DNA from: Alicyclobacillaceae bacterium
GTDB lineage: Bacteria; Bacillota; Bacilli; Kyrpidiales; Kyrpidiaceae
Reading direction: 5' to 3'
NCBI GenBank assembly: GCA_029961045.1
Contig: JASBVN010000004.1
Coordinates: 186,001 to 250,000 of the forward strand
DNA: 64,000 nucleotides
Part shown: in pieces, positions 52,257 through 61,647 of the stretch
Position numbering within the stretch: position 1 is the stretch's first letter
Layout of the letters: every line of letters starts with the position of its first letter
Program-made: the position numbers and the translations under genes
Notes under the pieces: generated by a model
What the model was told of the DNA's origin: nothing
Databases searched by the model: none
Seen by the model: only the letters and a program-made list of their open reading frames with translations

Positions 52257-52285
52257 GCCAATCCTGCCGGGGATTGGCGTTTTTT
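52257..52285 (+). terminator. Rho-independent terminator after the M19 dipeptidase
   Basis: GCCAATCC (52257-52264) and GGATTGGC (52271-52278) form an 8-base-pair stem, followed by GTTTTTT. A second hairpin without T tract follows at 52290-52317 (GGTGCGAC with GTCGCACC). Confidence 0.85.
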
Positions 52286-52314: not shown

Positions 52315-52342
52315 ACCAAAGGCCAATGCCCCGCATAGAATT
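52315..52342 (+). promoter_or_regulatory. Possible mother-cell (SigK-like) promoter of the cotE cluster
   Basis: AC at 52315-52316, 17 bases, then CATAGAATT (52334-52342), close to the SigK pattern AC-N16/17-CATAnnnTA with the last A replaced. B. subtilis cotE has SigE and SigK promoters. No SigA-type promoter is visible in 52286-52425, which supports sporulation control, but the match is weak. Confidence 0.3.
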
Positions 52343-52425: not shown

Positions 52426-52953
52426 GTGGCAAGTACAGTGAGAGACGCCGGGTGCCGCGAGATCATCACCGATGCGGTATGCGGCCGCGGGAGTCGCTAT
52501 TCGCAGATGACGTATACGATTCACCCGGCCAACCGGCCGTCCACAATCGGCGGATGTTGGGTGATGAACCACACCTTTGAAGGCCACCTGGTGGGGGACG
52601 TGGTCGAGGTGCGGGGACGCATGGACATCAACGTGTGGTACGCGTACAACAACAACAGCGAGACCGCCGTTGCGAAGGACACCGTGTCCTACGTGGAACA
52701 CATCCCCCTCCGGGACCTGGATCCCCATTGCCTCCATGGACACCGGGACGTGCTGGTCAAAGTGATCCAGCCGCCCCACTGCCTGGACGCCGTCATCGCC
52801 GGAAACGGCGCGGACATCTGCGTGCGGGTGGAAAAAGAACTGGCGGCGGAAGTGATCGGAAGAACCAAGCTGTACGTTCTGGTGTGCGAGCCGCCGGGAA
52901 AGAAGGACGAGGACGAAGATCTGGTAGAGGAAGAAGTCGAGGAACTGGCCTAG
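52426..52953 (+). CDS. cotE: Outer spore coat morphogenetic protein CotE
   Basis: Organises the outer layer of the spore coat; 175 residues. It aligns with B. subtilis CotE through REIITDAVCGRGSRYSQ, GCWVMNHTFEG, DINVWYAYNNNSETAVAKDT and VEKELAAEVIGRTKLYV. The tail is strongly acidic (KKDEDEDLVEEEVEEL), as in other CotE proteins. The GTG start has AGGGGAGGGA upstream. No terminator is visible between it and the five ligase genes that follow, the nearest only 39 bases downstream. Confidence 0.96.
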   Translation: MASTVRDAGCREIITDAVCGRGSRYSQMTYTIHPANRPSTIGGCWVMNHTFEGHLVGDVVEVRGRMDINVWYAYNNNSETAVAKDTVSYVEHIPLRDLDPHCLHGHRDVLVKVIQPPHCLDAVIAGNGADICVRVEKELAAEVIGRTKLYVLVCEPPGKKDEDEDLVEEEVEELA

Positions 52954-52992
52954 CGGCCCCCGGGGCTTCTCCGAGTTCCGCCGCAAGGTGGG

Positions 52993-54321
52993 GTGTTGGC
53001 CGTGTTGGAGGGACCGCTGCGCCTGGAATCCCTGGTTCACACGCAGCCCGTTGTCTATGTCGCCGCTCCGCTGATGCGCCGGGCCGGCATGCGGCAGGGT
53101 GCCTCCGCGGAGATCCGAGTGGGGTTGGGGCCTCCTCTTGCCGTCCAGGTGCGTTCCCACGTCCTCGATCCGAATGTCATGTTGGTGGCGCGTCCCGTTC
53201 TGCGGAAACTGGGGTTGCAGCGAGGAGACCGCCTGCACGCGCAGTGGGACGGGACGCGGCTTCGGCTCGGTCCCGTGGTCGCGATCTGGCTGCCGCCCCC
53301 GCGGAGTTCACCGCCCATCGCCTTCGGAGCCCAAACGGCTTGGGCGCGGGACGTCCTTGCCCTGGCACGGGACTCCGGCATATTGGCCTATATCACCGAA
53401 CAGCCTCCCCGGGGAGGCACCCGCACCTTCGGATGGTCGTGGGCCCGTCGATCCGGATGGATCAGGCGGCCCGTTCCGCCGCCCCACGCCCTATGGAGGC
53501 GAGTCGAACGGAATCAGAGGCGTCCGATCGGTTTGCAGGCGGACAGTCCGGAAGAGGGGCCTCTTTTGTTGTCCCCCGATATTGGGGATAAATGGAATAT
53601 ATATAAATTATTGATAGATGCGGGTTTGGGCGACCACGTGCCGTGGACGCGCCCGGTGGACTCCGTCCGGGAATTGGCTCGGGCCCTCCGGAGATTCGGT
53701 ACGGTGTTCGCCAAGCCCCGAAGGGGCAGCCGGGGTGAGGGACTGATTTTGTTGAGCGAGGAGGGAGGCCGGTTTCGCTGGTACCGGTACGGTCGCCGGG
53801 AACAGAGGGGGGTGTGGAATGGAGCGCCCACCCGGGCCCAGTGGCTCGATGTAGCCGGGCGGCAACCGTACCTGATCCAGCAGGCGATGGACACGCTACA
53901 TCTCGATGGGAGGCCTGTGGACTTCCGGTGGCTGGTCCAGCGGGACGGCCGGGGGATCTGGTCCGAAACGGCGGCTGCCGCCCGATGCGGCCTCGAAACG
54001 CCGGGCCCCACCAATCTCTCAAGGGGCGGCGCCGTGCGCCCGGCCCGGGATGTGCTCGATCCGGAGGATGCGGAATCCGGCCGCCAGCTCGCGCTGGCCG
54101 CGGCCGACGTCGTGGGGAAAGTTTATCCGACGCTGGCCGAATTGGGGATCGATATGTTGCTGGATGTCGGGCGCCGGTGGTGGATCCTCGACATCAATCC
54201 GAGACCCGGGAGGCGGATTCTCCGCCTGATCGACCCGGAGTTGCGGGAGCTGTCAATTCAAAAACCGCTGGAATATGTTAAATACGCGACGGGCTTCGCG
54301 GAAATCCGCTCGGAGGAATAA
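52993..54321 (+). CDS. YheC/YheD-like ATP-grasp protein, paralogue A (divergent)
   Basis: A 442-residue protein. The N-terminal ~95 residues form a beta-rich domain ending RLGPVVAIW, as in YheC/YheD. The ATP-grasp part has LSPDIGDKWNIYKLL, the nucleotide-binding Lys loop FAKPRRGSRGEGL, the hinge YLIQQAMDT, PVDFRWLVQRDG and the metal site ILDINPRPGRR. The metal site has Asp400-x-Asn402 where paralogues have Glu-x-Asn. YheC/YheD proteins are sporulation-associated in B. subtilis; YheD is a coat protein. The reaction is inferred to be ATP-dependent amide ligation. Four in-frame starts (52993 GTG, 52996 TTG, 53002 GTG, 53005 TTG) compete. It follows cotE by 39 bases. Confidence 0.83.
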   Translation: MLAVLEGPLRLESLVHTQPVVYVAAPLMRRAGMRQGASAEIRVGLGPPLAVQVRSHVLDPNVMLVARPVLRKLGLQRGDRLHAQWDGTRLRLGPVVAIWLPPPRSSPPIAFGAQTAWARDVLALARDSGILAYITEQPPRGGTRTFGWSWARRSGWIRRPVPPPHALWRRVERNQRRPIGLQADSPEEGPLLLSPDIGDKWNIYKLLIDAGLGDHVPWTRPVDSVRELARALRRFGTVFAKPRRGSRGEGLILLSEEGGRFRWYRYGRREQRGVWNGAPTRAQWLDVAGRQPYLIQQAMDTLHLDGRPVDFRWLVQRDGRGIWSETAAAARCGLETPGPTNLSRGGAVRPARDVLDPEDAESGRQLALAAADVVGKVYPTLAELGIDMLLDVGRRWWILDINPRPGRRILRLIDPELRELSIQKPLEYVKYATGFAEIRSEE

Positions 54322-54336
54322 AGACGGTACCCGGGG

Positions 54337-55719
54337 GTGAGGGGAGTGGTTCAAGTAGTCCGCGTGACGTTGCATCGCTCACCGCAACTGGAGGGCGCTT
54401 TAGCCGCGCCCCTGCGTTTCGGGGGTATCGGGGAGGATGTCCCCGTCGCGCTCCGGCACGGGCATGAGGAAGTATCCGCGCGGACGGTGGCGCTCACCTC
54501 TTCGGAGGACGAAGTCTACCTGGCGCAGGATCTCTGGACTCGCCTTCGCCTTCCGGATCGGGACCGTCTCGACTTACACCTGTCGTGGCAACCGTCAGAA
54601 CGGCTCGTCCGACTCGGCCCGTTGGTGGGGATCATCGCGGATCTCAAACGGAAAGGGAGCCGGCCCACCGGCCGGCAAGTGCCGATTTTCCGGCAACTCC
54701 TCCGGGCGGCGGGCGATCTGGGCGTCGTGGCTTACGTCTTCTCCCCCTTCGATGTTCAGTGGTCCAAAGGGACGGTGAAGGGGAGCTACCTCACCGGAGA
54801 GGACGGATGGACGACCCGTTTGCTTCCCCTGCCCGACGTCGTGTACGACCAAATTGTGTCCCGCCGGTTTGAACGGCGGCGGGATGTCCGAAAGACGCGC
54901 GAAAAGTTGATCCATTTGTTGTACCCGCGATATTTTAACGCGGGTTTCTTTGACAAATGGACCGTGTTTCACTGGCTTTCATCCGACGACCGCACGCGTC
55001 ATCAGTTGCCCCCCACCCTATTGTACCGCACGCCGGAACAGGGATTGGAATTCCTGGAGGAACACGGAGACATCTATTTGAAGCCGTCTATGGGAAGCCT
55101 CGGAGTAGGATTGATTCGCATTCACCACGGAGCCAACGGATTGGTCCACTACCGGTGGCGCAAGGGAAATCGCCGGTTGGAGGCGGGGGTGTGTCGCGAC
55201 CCGGCAGCATGGTTCACCCAACACCATCGGTTCTTTAAACAACGCTCGTATCTCCTGCAGCGGACCGTACCGCTGTGGCCTTTTGGAAACCGCATCTGGG
55301 ACGTTCGAGCTCTGCTGCAAAAGGACGGGACCCGGACTTGGAAACGGACCAAGATGTTCGTTCGGGTTTCGGCTCCCGGGGACATCGCGTCGAATGTCAC
55401 GACGGGGGGCCGGGCCGAACGGGTGGAGACTCTCATGGATCAGCTCCAAGTTTCCCGGGCCCAGGAACGGGCCATCGTCCGCCGCCTGTCCCGAACCGCC
55501 CGCTTCGTGGCCCAGGTTCTCGAGGAGAAATCCGGGCTCCTCCTCGGAGAACTCGGAGTGGATCTGGGAGTGGATGTTCACGGGCGCGTCTGGATCATCG
55601 AGGTGAATGCCAAACCGTGGAAGTCTCCGCATACGTTGGCCGGTACCGAAGAATTGGTACGGAAATCGTTCTTGCGGCCCATTGCCTACGCCAAATCCCT
55701 GGCCGGTTTTGCTCCGTAA
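54337..55719 (+). CDS. YheC/YheD-like ATP-grasp protein, paralogue B
   Basis: A 460-residue member, the most canonical of the set. The N-terminal beta domain ends RLGPLVGIIADLKRKG. Next come the conserved FNAGFFDKWTVFHWL, the Lys loop YLKPSMGSLGVGL, the hinge YLLQRTVPLW, IWDVRALLQKDG, and the metal site IIEVNAKPWKSPH (Glu422, Asn424). All residues expected for ATP and Mg binding are present, so it should be catalytically competent as an amide ligase. Start GTG 54337, with GTG 54346 an equal alternative. It begins 15 bases after paralogue A. Confidence 0.88.
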   Translation: MRGVVQVVRVTLHRSPQLEGALAAPLRFGGIGEDVPVALRHGHEEVSARTVALTSSEDEVYLAQDLWTRLRLPDRDRLDLHLSWQPSERLVRLGPLVGIIADLKRKGSRPTGRQVPIFRQLLRAAGDLGVVAYVFSPFDVQWSKGTVKGSYLTGEDGWTTRLLPLPDVVYDQIVSRRFERRRDVRKTREKLIHLLYPRYFNAGFFDKWTVFHWLSSDDRTRHQLPPTLLYRTPEQGLEFLEEHGDIYLKPSMGSLGVGLIRIHHGANGLVHYRWRKGNRRLEAGVCRDPAAWFTQHHRFFKQRSYLLQRTVPLWPFGNRIWDVRALLQKDGTRTWKRTKMFVRVSAPGDIASNVTTGGRAERVETLMDQLQVSRAQERAIVRRLSRTARFVAQVLEEKSGLLLGELGVDLGVDVHGRVWIIEVNAKPWKSPHTLAGTEELVRKSFLRPIAYAKSLAGFAP

Positions 55720-55758
55720 GCGGGAGGGGCCAGAGGGCGTGGGGAAGGAGGGAAACGC

Positions 55759-57225
55759 GTGCAAGTACAGGTACTTCACACCGGCCAGGCATCGGCGCAG
55801 AGGCTTGAACGCCGGCTTTCCAAACTTTTGGAACCTTGGGATTCCAGCCAGGCGAACGTGTACATTCGCTGGGGGACGGGAGGGGGCCCGGACCCGGCGG
55901 GAACGGTTCTCAACCGCCGGGAGGCGGTTCAAAGGGCGACGGACCGGGACCGGGTATTGTCCCTCCTCAACCGGTTCGGCGTCCGGACACCCGCCCGGTT
56001 GTGGGATTCCGAGGCGCCCCGTCGCATGGCCGCCGTGAGGCAGTATCGCATCCCCGTGTTCGACCACGCCGTTTTGGCCTGTTTTCGTTCCGAAGACCGG
56101 CGGGTGTGGTTAAACCGGCGCTTGACCCGGTTGCGGGACGACTACGTCGAAGTGCCGGAGGACGCGGACCGGGAGAGCATGCGGGCCTGCCGGTTGGCCC
56201 TGCGGGCCTCTCACGCCCTCGGACTCGATTTTGCCCTGGTCAGCATCGGCGTGTCGCCGAAGAACCGGCTGTACGTCCTCGATGTATCGCCGACTCCGGT
56301 GCTCCACGGACGCCTCCTGGATCTGTTTAGCGAAGCGGTCTCCCGGTATGTGGCGCGGGGGAAAGACAACACATCGAAGAGCGCCGCCCTGGTTCTCGGA
56401 GCCGATTTGGAATTCATGCTTCAGGGGCAGAGTGGAAGATTGGTCCTGGCTTCTCGGTACTTTCCCCGAAAGGGGGAAGTGGGGTGTGACGACCGGACCT
56501 TTCGGGGAGATCCGGGGCGCCTGCCCTTGGCGGAAATTCGGCCGGCCGCCTCTTCGTCCCCCCTTCGCCTGGTCGGGCACATCCGGGAAGCCCTCCTGGA
56601 GGCGGCCCGGCTGTGTCCTTCCCGAAAAATCAAATGGGTGGCCGGCAGCATGCCGGTACCTGGTTTTCCAATCGGAGGACATATCCATTTTACGGGAATC
56701 CACGCGGGAAGTCGCCTGGTCCGGGCCCTCGACACGTACGTCGGGCTCCCCGTGGCTCTGATGGAAGATCCGGAGACGGCGAGGATCAGAAGGCAAAAGT
56801 ACGGGTTTCTAGGCGATATCCGGCATAAATCCCACGGGGGGTTTGAATACCGGACGCCGGGCAGTTGGCTCGTTTCACCCGAAATCGCAACCGCCGTTCT
56901 GTGCCTGGCGCATATCGCGGCGGAACACTACCGGGATCTAGACGACTGGCCCTTCGGGGATCCGGAGGTTCAGATCGCCTTTTACCGGAGCGACCGGTCG
57001 GTTCTCAAGCCGGTGTTCGAGGCGATCTGGAAGCGGCTCACCCGGATCCCCCTTTACGAGGTGTATGAGGATCACCTTTCCGTCATTCCGTGGATGATCG
57101 GGCGGGATTTAACCTGGGATGAATCGGCGGACATCCGGGAGACCTGGGACATTCCCGCGCCCCGCCGCCGGGCTCGAACCGCCCGCTCGGGGTCCGGGGC
57201 CGGAACGGCTGCGGCACGGCGCTAG
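55759..57225 (+). CDS. Fusion of an ATP-grasp-like remnant with a COOH-NH2 ligase (phiEco32 type 2)
   Basis: A 488-residue protein in two halves. Residues 1-200 resemble a reduced ATP-grasp: YIRWGTGGG, NRREAVQRATDRDRVLSLL, then GLDFALVSIGV and the metal-site position LDVSPTP, where Asn is replaced by Ser177. The glycine-rich nucleotide loop of YheC/D is not recognisable. Residues 210-460 match the glutamine-synthetase-fold amidoligase family first named from phage phiEco32: GADLEF at 214-219, LAEIRPAAS, GGHIHF at 306-311 and the late GGFEYRTPGSWL. This half probably performs the ligation. AAGGAGGGA lies upstream of GTG 55759. The gene sits in the middle of the ligase row. Confidence 0.85.
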   Translation: MQVQVLHTGQASAQRLERRLSKLLEPWDSSQANVYIRWGTGGGPDPAGTVLNRREAVQRATDRDRVLSLLNRFGVRTPARLWDSEAPRRMAAVRQYRIPVFDHAVLACFRSEDRRVWLNRRLTRLRDDYVEVPEDADRESMRACRLALRASHALGLDFALVSIGVSPKNRLYVLDVSPTPVLHGRLLDLFSEAVSRYVARGKDNTSKSAALVLGADLEFMLQGQSGRLVLASRYFPRKGEVGCDDRTFRGDPGRLPLAEIRPAASSSPLRLVGHIREALLEAARLCPSRKIKWVAGSMPVPGFPIGGHIHFTGIHAGSRLVRALDTYVGLPVALMEDPETARIRRQKYGFLGDIRHKSHGGFEYRTPGSWLVSPEIATAVLCLAHIAAEHYRDLDDWPFGDPEVQIAFYRSDRSVLKPVFEAIWKRLTRIPLYEVYEDHLSVIPWMIGRDLTWDESADIRETWDIPAPRRRARTARSGSGAGTAAARR

Positions 57226-57252
57226 GCTTTCGCATGGAAAGGGGGACCGCCG

Positions 57253-58602
57253 GTGGACACGATGGAGAAGACCGGTCAGGCGACGATTTGGTTGCCGCGC
57301 TCTCTGGCGTCCCAATTGGGCATCCGCCCCGGCCGGACCGTTCGAGTGCGGTGGGGGCGGTGGAAAGGAAGGGCCGTGGTGGAAGTTGCCGAAGATCGGA
57401 GCGGTTCCGTAGAGATTCGCTGGCCCGCGACCGATTGTCCGCCGGCTGTACGCCCCGGTTCCCGCCGCCGTTTGCGGTATGTCGACGGGACGTTGGACCT
57501 CGGGCCCGTGCTGGCCGTCTTGATCGGAGCGGAGCCGGGCGAAGGGCGCAAAATTCCGGGCTTGGTCCGAACGCTGCTGCGTACGGGCGAACAGCAAGGG
57601 GTGTTGATCTACGCCTGTTATGGGTCGGAGATCGACTGGAACCGGCGAAGGGTCTGGGGATGGCGTCCGGCGCTCCGGGGTGGCTCCGGATGGCGTTGGT
57701 GGCCCCTGCCCGACGCGATCTACAACCGCATTCCCCACCGTTCAGAAGAAAATTTGCCTTCGGCCAAACAAGTGAAAGTGGAGGCGGCCGTCCATAGGAT
57801 TTGCTTGTTCAACAGCGGTTTCATCGACAAATGGAAAACCTACGAGATCCTATCCGGAGATGCGGTTCTTCGCTCCTGTCTTCCCCGTACGGAACGGCTG
57901 GAGGATCCTTCCCGCCAGATTCGCCGGTGGCTCGATGAAGGAGAGGCCTTCTATCTGAAGCCCGTTCACGGAAGCCTCGGAGAAGGTCTCGTCCTCAGCC
58001 TACCCGGTGCGGACGGATGGCGCGTCGGCCAGCAGGCGGGCGGCGTAGTCCGTTGGGGTGCGGGCGGCGTGTCGGCGGTTTACCGCCGGTTGGTCCGTCT
58101 GGCTTCGCGCCGCCCCTTTCTCCTTCAGAAGCGGGTCGATTTACTCCTGTTTCAGGGAAGGCGGGTGGATTTTCGCGTTCACCTCCAGCGGGGAAGTCTG
58201 GGACGCTGGACTCTCGTCGCTTTGGCGGGTAAAGGCGCCGGATCCGGGGCCCTCTCGACCCACGTGCGCTACGGTGGGATTGTCTGGCCGGCCGAGCGGG
58301 TTCTCGGCGCGTGGTTCGGAGGGGAGGCGGCGGCGTGGCGCAAACACCTCGCCGATCTTGCGGTGGCGGCCGCCGAACGCTTGGAAGGCGCGCTCGGCGG
58401 CCGCCTGGCGGAACTGGGACTGGACGTCGGCATTGACGCGGTCGGGCGGACGTGGGTATTTGAAGCCAACGCCAAACCCGGCCATCACATTTTTTCTCAC
58501 CCCGATTTGCGCTCCGCCCGGGTTCGGTGGGCCCGCCTGGTGGTCGACTATGCTGCGGATTTGGCGGAAGGAGCGGGGAGAAAGGGGGTGGAACACCTTT
58601 GA
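57253..58602 (+). CDS. YheC/YheD-like ATP-grasp protein, paralogue D
   Basis: A 449-residue protein with the full YheC/D architecture: beta domain ending DLGPVLAVLIG, FNSGFIDKWKTYEIL, Lys loop YLKPVHGSLGEGL, hinge FLLQKRVDLL, RVDFRVHLQRGS, and metal site VFEANAKPGHHIF (Glu404, Asn406). Competent by residue content. Start GTG 57253 with ATG 57262 as alternative; AAAGGGGG lies upstream. Its stop overlaps the start of the next paralogue (TTGA), so the two are translationally coupled. Confidence 0.88.
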   Translation: MDTMEKTGQATIWLPRSLASQLGIRPGRTVRVRWGRWKGRAVVEVAEDRSGSVEIRWPATDCPPAVRPGSRRRLRYVDGTLDLGPVLAVLIGAEPGEGRKIPGLVRTLLRTGEQQGVLIYACYGSEIDWNRRRVWGWRPALRGGSGWRWWPLPDAIYNRIPHRSEENLPSAKQVKVEAAVHRICLFNSGFIDKWKTYEILSGDAVLRSCLPRTERLEDPSRQIRRWLDEGEAFYLKPVHGSLGEGLVLSLPGADGWRVGQQAGGVVRWGAGGVSAVYRRLVRLASRRPFLLQKRVDLLLFQGRRVDFRVHLQRGSLGRWTLVALAGKGAGSGALSTHVRYGGIVWPAERVLGAWFGGEAAAWRKHLADLAVAAAERLEGALGGRLAELGLDVGIDAVGRTWVFEANAKPGHHIFSHPDLRSARVRWARLVVDYAADLAEGAGRKGVEHL

Positions 58603-59726
58603 ACCTGGCGATCCTGTTGTGGGAAAAAAACGGCCGCCCGATAGGCAACCTTCCCCTTTGTTCCGAATTGCTCCAAACGGGCCGGAAGATGGGGGCCGAC
58701 GTCTCGGTGGTCACCCCCCACGGACTTTTAAGGGCGCACCCATATGCCTTCGTACTGAGAAAGGGAATCTGGCGCCGCCGGCCGTTCGAAGGGGCCGATG
58801 CCGTTTACAACCGCATCTCCCTTCGCAAATGGGAACAGACGCCCCGGTTTCACGGTACCGTGCGGATGTTGAAGGAGCAAAATATACCGGTCTGGAATCC
58901 CGGCTTCTTTGCCAAAGACGACTTAATCCGGTCCTGGACGGCCTCGGACGCCGTCCTTTCCCGGCATGTGCCCGAGACCGTCGCCTGGACGGGGAAGGAG
59001 ACGGCCCCGCCGTTTTCATCCGGGGCCTGGGCGCTCAAGCCTTGCGACGGGCGGGCGGGAGAAGGGATTGTCAAAATCGTCCGCACCTCAGGCGAATACC
59101 GGTGGTGGTGGCAGGGCCGGGGAAAATCCGGCGAGGGACGGGGGGATTGGAACACCTGTCTGTCCTTTCTTCGCCGTTGGACGCAGGGCAGGAGATTCCT
59201 GTGTCAACGGTGGATCCAAACCGCTCGTTGGAAAGGTTGTCCGTTTGATTTCCGGCTGTTGTTCCAAAAGGACGCCACCGGCCGCTGGGTTCTCCGCGGT
59301 ACGGGAGCCCGGGCGGCAGGCAGGCGGCGGATGACCACCCACGTTCCCTGGGGAGGGCGCGTCGTCGATGGGGAATCGGCCGTCAAAGAGGTGTTCGGGC
59401 TGCAGGCGCCCGAAGTGTTTGAATCGGCACTCCGGGTCGCCCGGATGGCTGTCGAAACCGTCGACGCCCGGTACGGAGGCCGCACCGGGGAGATGAGCGT
59501 GGATCTCGCGTGCGACCGGAGCGGTTTTCCGTGGCTGTTCGAAGCAAACGCCAAACCCATGCGCTTCGACGAGCCCCACATCCACCGGAGCTATCTTCAC
59601 GGAGTTTTCGAAACCGCGCGGTGGACTGCGACATTCACCGGATGCGAGCGGCCTGCGACCTCCAGTCCTCCAGAATCTCCGCGGCCAACCGCCGTGAGCG
59701 AAAGGCGACATTCAATTCGTGGTTGA
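58599..59726 (+). CDS. YheC/YheD-like ATP-grasp protein, paralogue E (no N-terminal beta domain)
   Basis: A 375-residue protein starting at TTG 58599 (LNLAILLWEKNGRPIGN), 10 bases after AAAGGGGG and overlapping the stop of paralogue D. It begins directly at the pre-ATP-grasp domain, lacking the ~95-residue beta domain of the others. It has WNPGFFAKDDLIRSW, Lys loop ALKPCDGRAGEGI, PFDFRLLFQKDA, EMSVDLACDRSG and metal site LFEANAKPMRFDE (Glu315). The last 31 codons overlap the convergent phospholipase-D-like gene and are low in recognisable sequence, so the functional end may be near residue 345. Confidence 0.84.
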   Translation: MNLAILLWEKNGRPIGNLPLCSELLQTGRKMGADVSVVTPHGLLRAHPYAFVLRKGIWRRRPFEGADAVYNRISLRKWEQTPRFHGTVRMLKEQNIPVWNPGFFAKDDLIRSWTASDAVLSRHVPETVAWTGKETAPPFSSGAWALKPCDGRAGEGIVKIVRTSGEYRWWWQGRGKSGEGRGDWNTCLSFLRRWTQGRRFLCQRWIQTARWKGCPFDFRLLFQKDATGRWVLRGTGARAAGRRRMTTHVPWGGRVVDGESAVKEVFGLQAPEVFESALRVARMAVETVDARYGGRTGEMSVDLACDRSGFPWLFEANAKPMRFDEPHIHRSYLHGVFETARWTATFTGCERPATSSPPESPRPTAVSERRHSIRG

Positions 59727-60654
59727 CTTCAAAGGCCCGGTTCGTCCAGTTGGCGCTGCCCATCACCACCGTTTCTTCGTCCGCCACGAGAACCTTGGCG
59801 TGAAGCCGTTCGCCGCGACTCCGGTACAGGCGGACATCCGCTCCTGAAGCGGCCAGAAAGTCCTGGGCGAACCACCGGTCGGGTTGACGCGGATCGAGGA
59901 GGACATGCACCTCCACGCCCCGTCCGGCGGCCCGGGCGAGGGACCGCAATACCGTTTCGTCGTTAAGATCGAAAATTTCGGCATAGATCGAGCGTTGCGC
60001 CCGCTCCACGGCACCGGTCAACACATCGCGCACCGCTTCCCCCGAGTATACCCACTGTCCCGCCTCGCGGCGATGCGCGACCCCATGTTCCCAATCTTTT
60101 TCGAAATGGGCGCGGCATTCTCGCCCGAGGGGATGGTCGGCGGGTACCCGAAGAACCAGGTCGTGGTTGGCCCACGAGCCCGGTCCCCAGTTCATGCTGC
60201 CCACCAGGCAACCTTCGTCGGTCAACAGCAATTTCACGTGGTCGATTCCCCCGGGCACGGCGGCCTGGCGGACCTGGACTCCCTCCCTTCGAAGAAAATC
60301 GAAGGCCCGCCTGCTGTGTTCTTCCGTAGCGTCCAAGATGACCCGCACGTCCACGCCGCGGTCGGCGGCCCGGGCCGCGGCTTCCAGAAGGGCTTCATCT
60401 CCCCACTCGTACATTTCGATCCACAGCAGAGTTGCAGCCCGGTCGATCCAACGGAGGGACTGGTCGCGCACACGCTCGCCCCAAACCAAGCGCAGACCGG
60501 AATCGGCGCCGGTTCGAACGGGGGAGGCGCAGGCCCCAAGGAGCACCGCGACCGTCCAGCAAGCGGCCAGTATCCGGAGGAGCGTCCGGGCGCGGAGGGG
60601 TGTGTGCGTCCGGTTCAAACCCCCTTTCGCGCATAATCGGGAAAGGAGATTCAT
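59635..60654 (-). CDS. Phospholipase-D-like lipoprotein with two HKD motifs
   Basis: A 339-residue protein on the minus strand. A signal peptide with lipobox LGAC (Cys42) predicts a lipoprotein exposed outside the membrane. There are two PLD repeats, each with a complete HxKxxxxD: His139-Lys141-Asp146 followed by GSMNW, and His285-Lys287-Asp292 followed by GSANW. The fold covers phospholipases, cardiolipin synthases and nucleases. With lipid anchoring and no membrane helices I favour a surface phosphodiesterase; the substrate is unknown. The ATG at 60654 lacks a clear Shine-Dalgarno. The 3' end overlaps paralogue E by 92 bases. Confidence 0.88.
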   Translation of the reverse strand: MNLLSRLCAKGGLNRTHTPLRARTLLRILAACWTVAVLLGACASPVRTGADSGLRLVWGERVRDQSLRWIDRAATLLWIEMYEWGDEALLEAAARAADRGVDVRVILDATEEHSRRAFDFLRREGVQVRQAAVPGGIDHVKLLLTDEGCLVGSMNWGPGSWANHDLVLRVPADHPLGRECRAHFEKDWEHGVAHRREAGQWVYSGEAVRDVLTGAVERAQRSIYAEIFDLNDETVLRSLARAAGRGVEVHVLLDPRQPDRWFAQDFLAASGADVRLYRSRGERLHAKVLVADEETVVMGSANWTNRAFEVNHELNVAFRSRRLAAEILEDWRSQAARIR

Positions 60655-60926: not shown

Positions 60927-61292
60927 TCACCATAACAGGAAGGCAAAGGCGAGCAGCCACGCCCAGGCGATCCACCACCACCACCAGCCTCCGTGCCACC
61001 ACCCCCAGCCCGGGGCAGCCCATTGCACCAACTCCACACCGAGGTGTTCCCGGACCGGCCGGGCGAGAGCGTGACGCACCCGTTGCAACTGCTGGACGTC
61101 CCCTCCTTGTAACGGAGTGGCGGCCCAGGTTGCAGAAAAGGCGAACCGGGGAGCGTAACGGCGAGGGACACTGACCAAGATCCCGTCCGGCGTCACCCGG
61201 CGGATGATACCCCGGTGTACGCCCCACGGAGTGCGGAATTCCATCCAATGCCCCACCCGTCGACGGCACACCGCATACGCGTAGGCGGCCAT
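60927..61292 (-). CDS. Small protein with Trp-rich hydrophobic C-terminus (unknown function)
   Basis: A 121-residue protein starting at ATG 61292, 6 bases after AAGGAGGT on the minus strand, a very good ribosome site. I do not recognise a named family. Residues 10-60 (RRRVGHWMEFRTPWGVHRGI followed by IRRVTPDGILVSVP) resemble a small SH3/Sm-like beta barrel. A middle segment (about 65-90) is likely helical. The last 27 residues contain 11 tryptophans, including a run of five, and end as a hydrophobic segment WAWLLAFAFLLW. The tail could insert in a membrane or the spore coat interface. It may be a spore-surface protein, but this is a guess from composition and location. Confidence 0.75.
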   Translation of the reverse strand: MAAYAYAVCRRRVGHWMEFRTPWGVHRGIIRRVTPDGILVSVPRRYAPRFAFSATWAATPLQGGDVQQLQRVRHALARPVREHLGVELVQWAAPGWGWWHGGWWWWWIAWAWLLAFAFLLW

Positions 61293-61647
61293 GTCATGCA
61301 CCTCCTTCCTGCCGGTTCCCTTATAAGAAATGCCTTGACCCGGAGGGGCGAAACGGACAGTTGTACGAGATCGGCGGTCCCGTTCCGTATGAGGAAATGC
61401 GCGGGAGCGTCCGGAGAAACTCGGCGGGCGAACTCTCGTGAACAAAGTGTTCTCCCTCTTTGAACACTTTGTTCATCTTTTTTCTTAGCCCGAAGTTTTG
61501 GATAAGATCGATTTCTTCGATCCACTCAGGGGCGGGGAGGCAGAGGATCCTACCGTTGGCATGCTTTGTGCATGCGTACTTGTGGGTGGAGCGCACGAAG
61601 AATGCGGGCGCCTCATCCATAAATCTCAGAAGGAGGATTCGACATCC
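61293..61647. other. Non-coding divergent region with palindromes upstream of the alcohol dehydrogenase
   Basis: About 355 bases between the divergent minus-strand small gene and adh. No credible gene is visible; plus-strand frames here are mirror frames of the neighbours. It holds the Shine-Dalgarno of the minus-strand gene, a long palindrome at 61439-61475, and two short inverted repeats with identical 5-base gaps: GATCGA/TCGATC (61506-61522) and GCATGC/GCATGC (61559-61575). I see no strong SigA promoter. Confidence 0.6.
61439..61484 (+). promoter_or_regulatory. Nested palindrome: two GAACA-N3-TGTTC sites forming a T-tailed hairpin
   Basis: GAACAAAGTGTTC (61440-61452) and GAACACTTTGTTC (61462-61474) are each a palindrome with a 3-base centre. 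Together they are inverted copies of each other (14-base arms with flanking T/A). TCTTTTTT follows, so the element could be a rightward terminator, or a double operator for a dimeric repressor of the downstream dehydrogenases. Confidence 0.6.

Follow-up and report, generated by a model that had tools for sequence, protein, structure and literature searches.

A cotE-linked row of five predicted amide ligases in an Alicyclobacillaceae bacterium: a candidate sporulation operon for a peptide-like coat component

The insoluble, cross-linked fraction of the spore coat is poorly explained in chemical terms, and YheC and YheD have no known function. In Bacillus subtilis, YheD forms a shell on the spore that depends on SpoIVA, and its function is given as unknown (PMC7911427). 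Relevant background also comes from peptide ligases encoded side by side. A passage of PMC4431377 describes linked ATP-grasp, COOH-NH2 and GNAT ligases as often acting in succession, the products of operons with a GNAT being thought to be acyl-capped; the reference list of that paper includes the amidoligase study of Iyer, Abhiman, Burroughs and Aravind (2009, Mol BioSyst 5:1636). Here we describe a row of genes in a window of DNA, i.e. the whole stretch that was analysed, 64,000 nucleotides of contig JASBVN010000004.1 from an Alicyclobacillaceae bacterium, in which the coat gene cotE is followed by four YheCD-type ATP-grasp genes and one COOH-NH2 ligase gene. Neighbourhoods of YheCD, COOH-NH2 ligase and CotE genes were reportedly predicted in 2009 by Iyer and colleagues, with a role in the modification of the spore coat or wall, and are reportedly named in the Pfam notes as well. 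An earlier reading of the window, made from the sequence only, held that no characterised system of this size was known next to cotE. We found none in the literature, nor any experimental work on catalysis by PF14395 or YheCD proteins. The claim of novelty was too strong in view of the 2009 prediction, and the row is probably a well-supported case of a predicted, uncharacterised system.

On balance we favour the reading that the row is a sporulation operon carrying an ordered amide-ligation pathway for a peptide-like coat component. The genes lie on the plus strand in the order cotE, Y1, Y2, COOH-NH2 ligase, Y3 and Y4. The first (52426-52953) encodes the outer spore-coat morphogenetic protein CotE, 175 amino acids with the conserved core and an acidic tail (PF10628, 193 bits against a cut-off of 25, E=3e-57). 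Four YheCD-type ATP-grasp ligases score between 162 and 228 bits in Pfam profile searches with PF14398 (cut-off 26.8): Y1 (52993-54321, 442 amino acids, E=1e-48), Y2 (54337-55719, 460 amino acids, E=1e-67), Y3 (57253-58602, 449 amino acids, E=8e-56) and Y4 (58599-59726, 375 amino acids, E=2e-47). Between Y2 and Y3 lies the ligase gene (55759-57225), whose product of 488 amino acids has two parts and reaches 335.7 bits with PF14395 (cut-off 25, E=2e-100). The recomputed open reading frames, families and gaps (39, 15, 39, 27 and -4 bases, Y4 starting with a TTG within a TTGA overlap with Y3) bear out the row as first described. The same holds for the reported lack of terminators within it, as terminator-like matches between 51000 and 61500 stay at chance level (10 against 12.6 expected). 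An intrinsic-terminator-like hairpin of nine pairs with a GTTTTTTCTC tail (52257-52278, plus strand) marks the boundary between the upstream M19 dipeptidase gene and cotE, and a convergent phospholipase-D-like gene terminates the row after Y4. No PF14398 or PF14395 gene was found elsewhere in the host genome (2.19 Mb, about 80% complete). The closest sampled relatives of the window are three genomes of the same family (G001-G003).

The linkage is strongly conserved in Bacilli. Among 251 genomes of this class, the ligase is present in 140, CotE in 179 and YheCD in 172, and each of the 140 ligase-bearing genomes (140/140) has both CotE and YheCD. Conserved linkage to cotE, whose absence from relatives had been named beforehand as the main ground for giving up the proposal, was found in 118 of the 120 genomes with places listed for both ligase and CotE: in all of these the ligase lies within 10 kb downstream of cotE and shares its strand, directly adjacent in 89 genomes and with intervening genes in 29. 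The exceptions are G087, with the ligase at the end of a contig, and G141, with the ligase at the start of one and a transposase next to it. In the loci that were read, the arrangement cotE-Y-Y-ligase-Y-Y is found in the family of the window and in G037, G105, G149 and G245. At the remaining loci, cotE and the ligase are joined by one to three YheCD genes or by none, the YheCD genes then lying elsewhere, as a four-gene cassette in the cases read. In the ligase-free Bacilli loci read, no YheCD gene was seen near cotE.

The full cluster of cotE, four YheCD genes and the ligase also occurs outside Bacilli, where its gene surroundings differ. Two arrangements were seen there, cotE-cotE'-Y-Y-Y-Y-ligase (G263, G305, G395 and, with one frame split, G370) and cotE-Y-ligase-Y-Y-Y followed by a GNAT-like acetyltransferase gene (G269, G310 and G346). 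In G375 a gene in the same place resembles GNAT by eye and has no Pfam match. Because it recurs across the class and the phylum, the arrangement is more than chance. The GNAT-like genes that end these clusters (L118:5352-5843, L123:13890-14357, L128:13947-14441 and L131:8077-8610) have Pfam matches in three cases out of four, and by analogy with linked peptide-ligase operons they possibly supply a capping step. In a sample of 150 genomes from the phylum, SpoIVA was found in 131 and the ligase in 20; SpoIVA and YheCD accompany the ligase in each of the 20, CotE in 15 of them. A restriction of the ligase to spore-formers is therefore supported in the sampled genomes. The other five (G267, G297, G308, G334 and G373) have YheCD genes near the ligase and no CotE detectable even with a broad CotE profile.

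Some observations on CotE itself came out of this sample. A survey of 2012 reported no CotE in clostridia (PMC3533761); outside Bacilli, in the same phylum, we find homologues with PF10628 E-values of about 1e-24 to 1e-35 at loci L116, L118, L119, L121, L123, L124, L128, L129, L131, L132 and L135. Some of them are tandem pairs, in which the first copy lacks an acidic tail and the second has one. At two loci an AstE/AspA-M99-like metallopeptidase of 810-860 amino acids lies between divergent cotE and ligase genes (L119:2268-4850 and L124:7320-9746), the former containing a stretch of Pro-Gly-Glu-Asp repeats. This enzyme could trim or recycle the product.

The four YheCD proteins were said to share ATP-grasp motifs, and a residue alignment of four orthologue groups (14, 14, 7 and 14 sequences) with 28 sequences from stand-alone clusters confirms this. 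The Lys-Pro/Gly loop, the D-x-R strand and the (E/D)-x-N-x-(K/R)-P metal site are present in Y1, Y2, Y3 and Y4; Y1 has Asp in place of Glu in the metal site and keeps the remaining ATP-grasp residues, and the catalytic columns are near-invariant among the orthologues. In two trees, Y1 to Y4 sort into position-specific groups. The groups of Y3 and Y4 also hold genes 3 and 4 of the stand-alone cassettes together with cluster genes from outside Bacilli (100/98 and 98/88), and Y2 clusters with non-Bacilli sequences (99/96); the position of Y1 differs between the trees. The paralogues are therefore old, non-redundant orthologous lines common to Bacilli and other classes, although horizontal transfer of whole cassettes could also have contributed. 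Old, distinct paralogues would suit a pathway in which each catalyses a step of its own.

Structure prediction, which had been suggested for the paralogues, was carried out for Y2. The model best matches RimK (4iwx, E=4e-10), and further fold matches include Ddl, ArgX, tubulin tyrosine ligase and graspetide ligases. The last of these bring in a different idea, namely that the ATP-grasp enzymes join side chains of coat proteins in a graspetide-like or isopeptide cross-linking reaction. Spore coats are indeed heavily cross-linked, and the graspetide ligases MdnC and PsnB are among the matches of Y2. However, these match no better than RimK or Ddl, and there is no precursor-peptide gene: the gaps in the row are at most 39 bases and the upstream gap is taken up by the terminator and the promoter. 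A graspetide precursor gene within the row is ruled out for want of space between the genes, and we judge cross-linking of this type to be very improbable.

The COOH-NH2 ligase had been described as a fusion of an ATP-grasp and a ligase domain. The ligase part is real; the ATP-grasp part is a truncated RimK-like domain that has lost its ATP-binding lobe. The catalytic part (56395-57153, plus strand) carries the motifs GxDxE, ExRP, GGHxH and FEYR, which are invariant or nearly so among the Bacilli proteins, and its key residues are unchanged even in comparison with phage homologues. In the AlphaFold model the predicted local distance difference test (pLDDT) is mostly about 90 or more over this core (residues about 210-465). 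The best matches of the predicted structure in the PDB are the YbdK-type ligases 1tt4 and 1r8g and GshF (3ln7), glutamine synthetase and Dop match as well, and on this model the protein is an enzyme of the glutamine synthetase/gamma-glutamylcysteine synthetase (GS/GCS) fold. A sequence-level search against solved structures gave no significant match.

The N-terminal part (55759-56376, plus strand) is a different matter. Residues 94-204 of the protein match the C-lobe part of the RimK-like family phrog_2599 (positions 198-312, E=1.3e-7), whereas a stand-alone phage ATP-grasp protein matches positions 77-309 of the same family. Two collinear RimK matches, each below threshold (whole-sequence E=0.03), flank a shortened middle. 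The domain thus keeps the segment before the ATP-binding lobe and the C-lobe, the ATP-binding lobe with its Lys-Gly loop is gone, and the alignment places D-V-S in the window protein at the E-x-N position. With the ATP lobe absent and E-x-N lost, a working ATP-grasp domain is ruled out here. The relation to RimK was found with PHROGs and PDB profiles; a Pfam search of the domain gave no relevant match, hhalign against the four YheCD proteins showed no useful similarity (probability 2.9), and the AlphaFold model of the domain is of low confidence, the alignment used not covering it. The fusion partner being a dead, shortened ATP-grasp domain, the row encodes five active-looking ligases, not six. 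We infer that the remnant is kept for docking or acceptor binding.

This remnant also bears on the view that the YheCD proteins are building blocks of the coat whose catalysis is vestigial. YheD of B. subtilis does interact strongly with itself and forms a shell (PMC7911427), as a structural protein might. Against this, the catalytic residues are near-invariant in all four YheCD lines, and the truncated RimK-like domain of the ligase shows what lost catalysis looks like. A purely structural role is, in our judgement, scarcely credible.

Upstream of cotE the row has a putative mother-cell-type promoter, as indicated by consensus. The candidate in the window, ACC-N16-GCATAGAATT (52315-52342, plus strand), belongs to a sigma-K-like pattern, AC-N15-18-CATAnnnTA/T, that is also found in the relatives of the window. 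Such sites occur in 20 of 37 ligase-linked cotE upstream regions against 1.5 expected, a figure that is indicative only, as it is derived from mononucleotide shuffles and related sequences. Sigma-E-type sites are at chance level.

What would the ligases act on? The sequence-only reading offered the Glu/Asp-rich tail of CotE, to which amino acids would be added much as RimK adds them to ribosomal protein S6. The near-universal adjacency of cotE and the ligase in Bacilli fits this proposal, as do the fact that the ligase is never found without CotE in the sampled Bacilli, the top fold match of Y2 to RimK, the kinship of the ligase N-terminal domain to a RimK-like enzyme and the flexibility of the CotE tail (PMC11980541). 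That said, the tails of ligase-free CotEs are just as acidic: 12 of the 13 have 31-58% Asp/Glu (the other has 7%), at least 42% in 10 of the 13, similar to the ligase-bearing ones. The tail of B. cereus CotE is flexible and controls Ca2+-dependent assembly (PMC11980541), which would itself explain the acidity. Furthermore, CotE went undetected in five spore-formers that carry the ligase, and the first CotE of tandem-cotE clusters has no tail, even if the second has one. The only CotE positions that separate ligase-bearing from ligase-free genomes are C19, A83 and P94, and these are confounded by phylogeny. Given the acidic tails of ligase-free CotEs, their role in Ca2+-dependent assembly and the clusters without CotE, the tail is unlikely to be an obligate acceptor, and we reject a ligase-specific acceptor role of the tail as the leading idea. 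Tagging of CotE as an explanation of the whole row seems distinctly unlikely.

A second answer is that there is no protein acceptor and that the enzymes make a small molecule or a polymer, either free or bound to a carrier (teichuronopeptide-, cyanophycin- or phosphonopeptide-like), destined for the spore surface. Products of this kind are the usual ones of linked peptide ligases, according to the passage of PMC4431377 cited above. Fusion proteins of ligase and YheCD, about 870-905 amino acids long, occur in G086, G098, G080 and G148 and suggest that the two act together. In two genomes the genes after the fusion encode a Mur ligase, a phosphoenolpyruvate mutase, a thiamine pyrophosphate-dependent decarboxylase-like enzyme and an aminotransferase/nucleotidyltransferase (L072:8548-16517 and L074:4601-12606), loci that look like a cluster for a phosphonate (2-aminoethylphosphonate-type) peptide or polymer. 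The cotE clusters, however, contain no transporter, carrier, glycosyltransferase or Mur ligase, and the near-universal pairing of the ligase with a coat protein is not what a free product would lead one to expect. We therefore regard this explanation as rather unlikely, though worth keeping in mind.

We return to the favoured reading, an ordered ligation pathway for a coat component. The mother-cell sporulation operon would combine CotE with a five-enzyme, ribosome-independent amide-ligation pathway. Each ligase, the GS/GCS-fold enzyme as well as the four YheCDs, would use ATP to convert a carboxylate into an acyl-phosphate, which would then be joined to an amine. The five would act in a fixed order, non-redundantly, and their product would be a short peptide-like chain, built up or attached by them and incorporated into the spore coat. 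The acceptor may be a coat protein, a lipid or glycan carrier, or a free peptide. The dead RimK-like domain would probably serve as the acceptor or docking module of the ligase, and CotE is less likely an obligate substrate than a scaffold by which the pathway is placed or co-timed. Sequential ligation of amino acids on a coat component, as first suggested, is consistent with the linkage, the restriction to spore-formers, the promoter consensus, the intact active sites and the four distinct conserved paralogues, and the ligase-YheCD fusion proteins speak for enzymes that work together; its choice of the CotE tail as acceptor was not supported.

Several points weigh against this pathway. In 89 of the 118 linked Bacilli genomes only cotE and the ligase are adjacent and the YheCD genes lie elsewhere. 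Part of the linkage in Bacilli may be general synteny of the rny-ymdB-spoVS region, an explanation that is limited because the cluster persists in other surroundings outside the class. Co-occurrence p-values from the Bacilli sample ignore phylogeny, and the fold models of Y2 and the ligase, with mean pLDDT values of 66.6 and 69.2, command moderate confidence. Finally, B. subtilis has CotE and YheC/YheD but sporulates without the ligase, which shows that a coat can form in the absence of the full pathway.

A broader proposition can be made tentatively, and we hold it with less confidence than the reading of the row itself: that spores of several Firmicutes classes carry, as a covalent constituent of their coat, a widespread and endospore-specific peptide or peptide-like polymer, assembled without ribosomes by four dedicated ATP-grasp ligases and a GS-fold ligase, and that it is older than the split between these classes. 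If true, this polymer would have been overlooked because B. subtilis has no GS-fold ligase and retains the system only in part.

Two further features lie downstream of the row. The phospholipase-D-like protein (59635-60654, minus strand) has two HKD motifs, and its gene overlaps the end of Y4 convergently; among the cotE-ligase loci read, it was seen in the family of the window only. Between it and an alcohol dehydrogenase gene is an open frame of 172 amino acids (60927-61445, minus strand) that has no Pfam or NCBIfam match and may not be a gene.

How does the row compare with the systems it resembles? The YbdK/GCS2 and GshF gamma-glutamylcysteine ligases share the fold of the ligase core; at the sequence level the ligase has no significant match to any solved structure, and its substrate is not to be inferred from the fold. 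RimK-type glutamylation, with an ATP-grasp amide ligase and an acidic-tail acceptor, serves as an analogy, and among known folds the Y2 model comes closest to RimK. Unlike it, the window has four distinct paralogues and a GS-fold ligase, and the sequence relation between YheCD and RimK is weak. Phage clusters of the phiEco32-like type have a homologous ligase domain, in several copies at some loci, with a RimK-like ATP-grasp gene nearby; their ligases are about 24-32% identical, and the copies read have no fused RimK remnant and no CotE. The viral contigs L098-L115 each hold one to three COOH-NH2 ligase homologues, several with a nearby phrog_2599 gene. A scan of genome contigs with the ligase protein alone gave one weak relative, in Alsobacter soli, and tblastn against named phage records gave no match.

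Closest to the row are B. subtilis and the neighbourhoods predicted in 2009. YheC and YheD belong to the same ATP-grasp family as Y1-Y4, but B. subtilis has no PF14395 gene (a profile search served as control), unlike the window, and is therefore unsafe as the sole model of the coat. The cotE-coupled set of five ligases names the exact genes for a possible non-ribosomal peptide modification or polymer of spores. The 2009 prediction reportedly concerned the same three families, YheCD, PF14395 and CotE. To it this work adds a quantified linkage and nestedness, the orthology of the four YheCD lines, the occurrence of clusters beyond Bacilli and of clusters without CotE, the dead RimK-like N-terminal domain of the ligase and reasons to doubt that the CotE tail is the acceptor.

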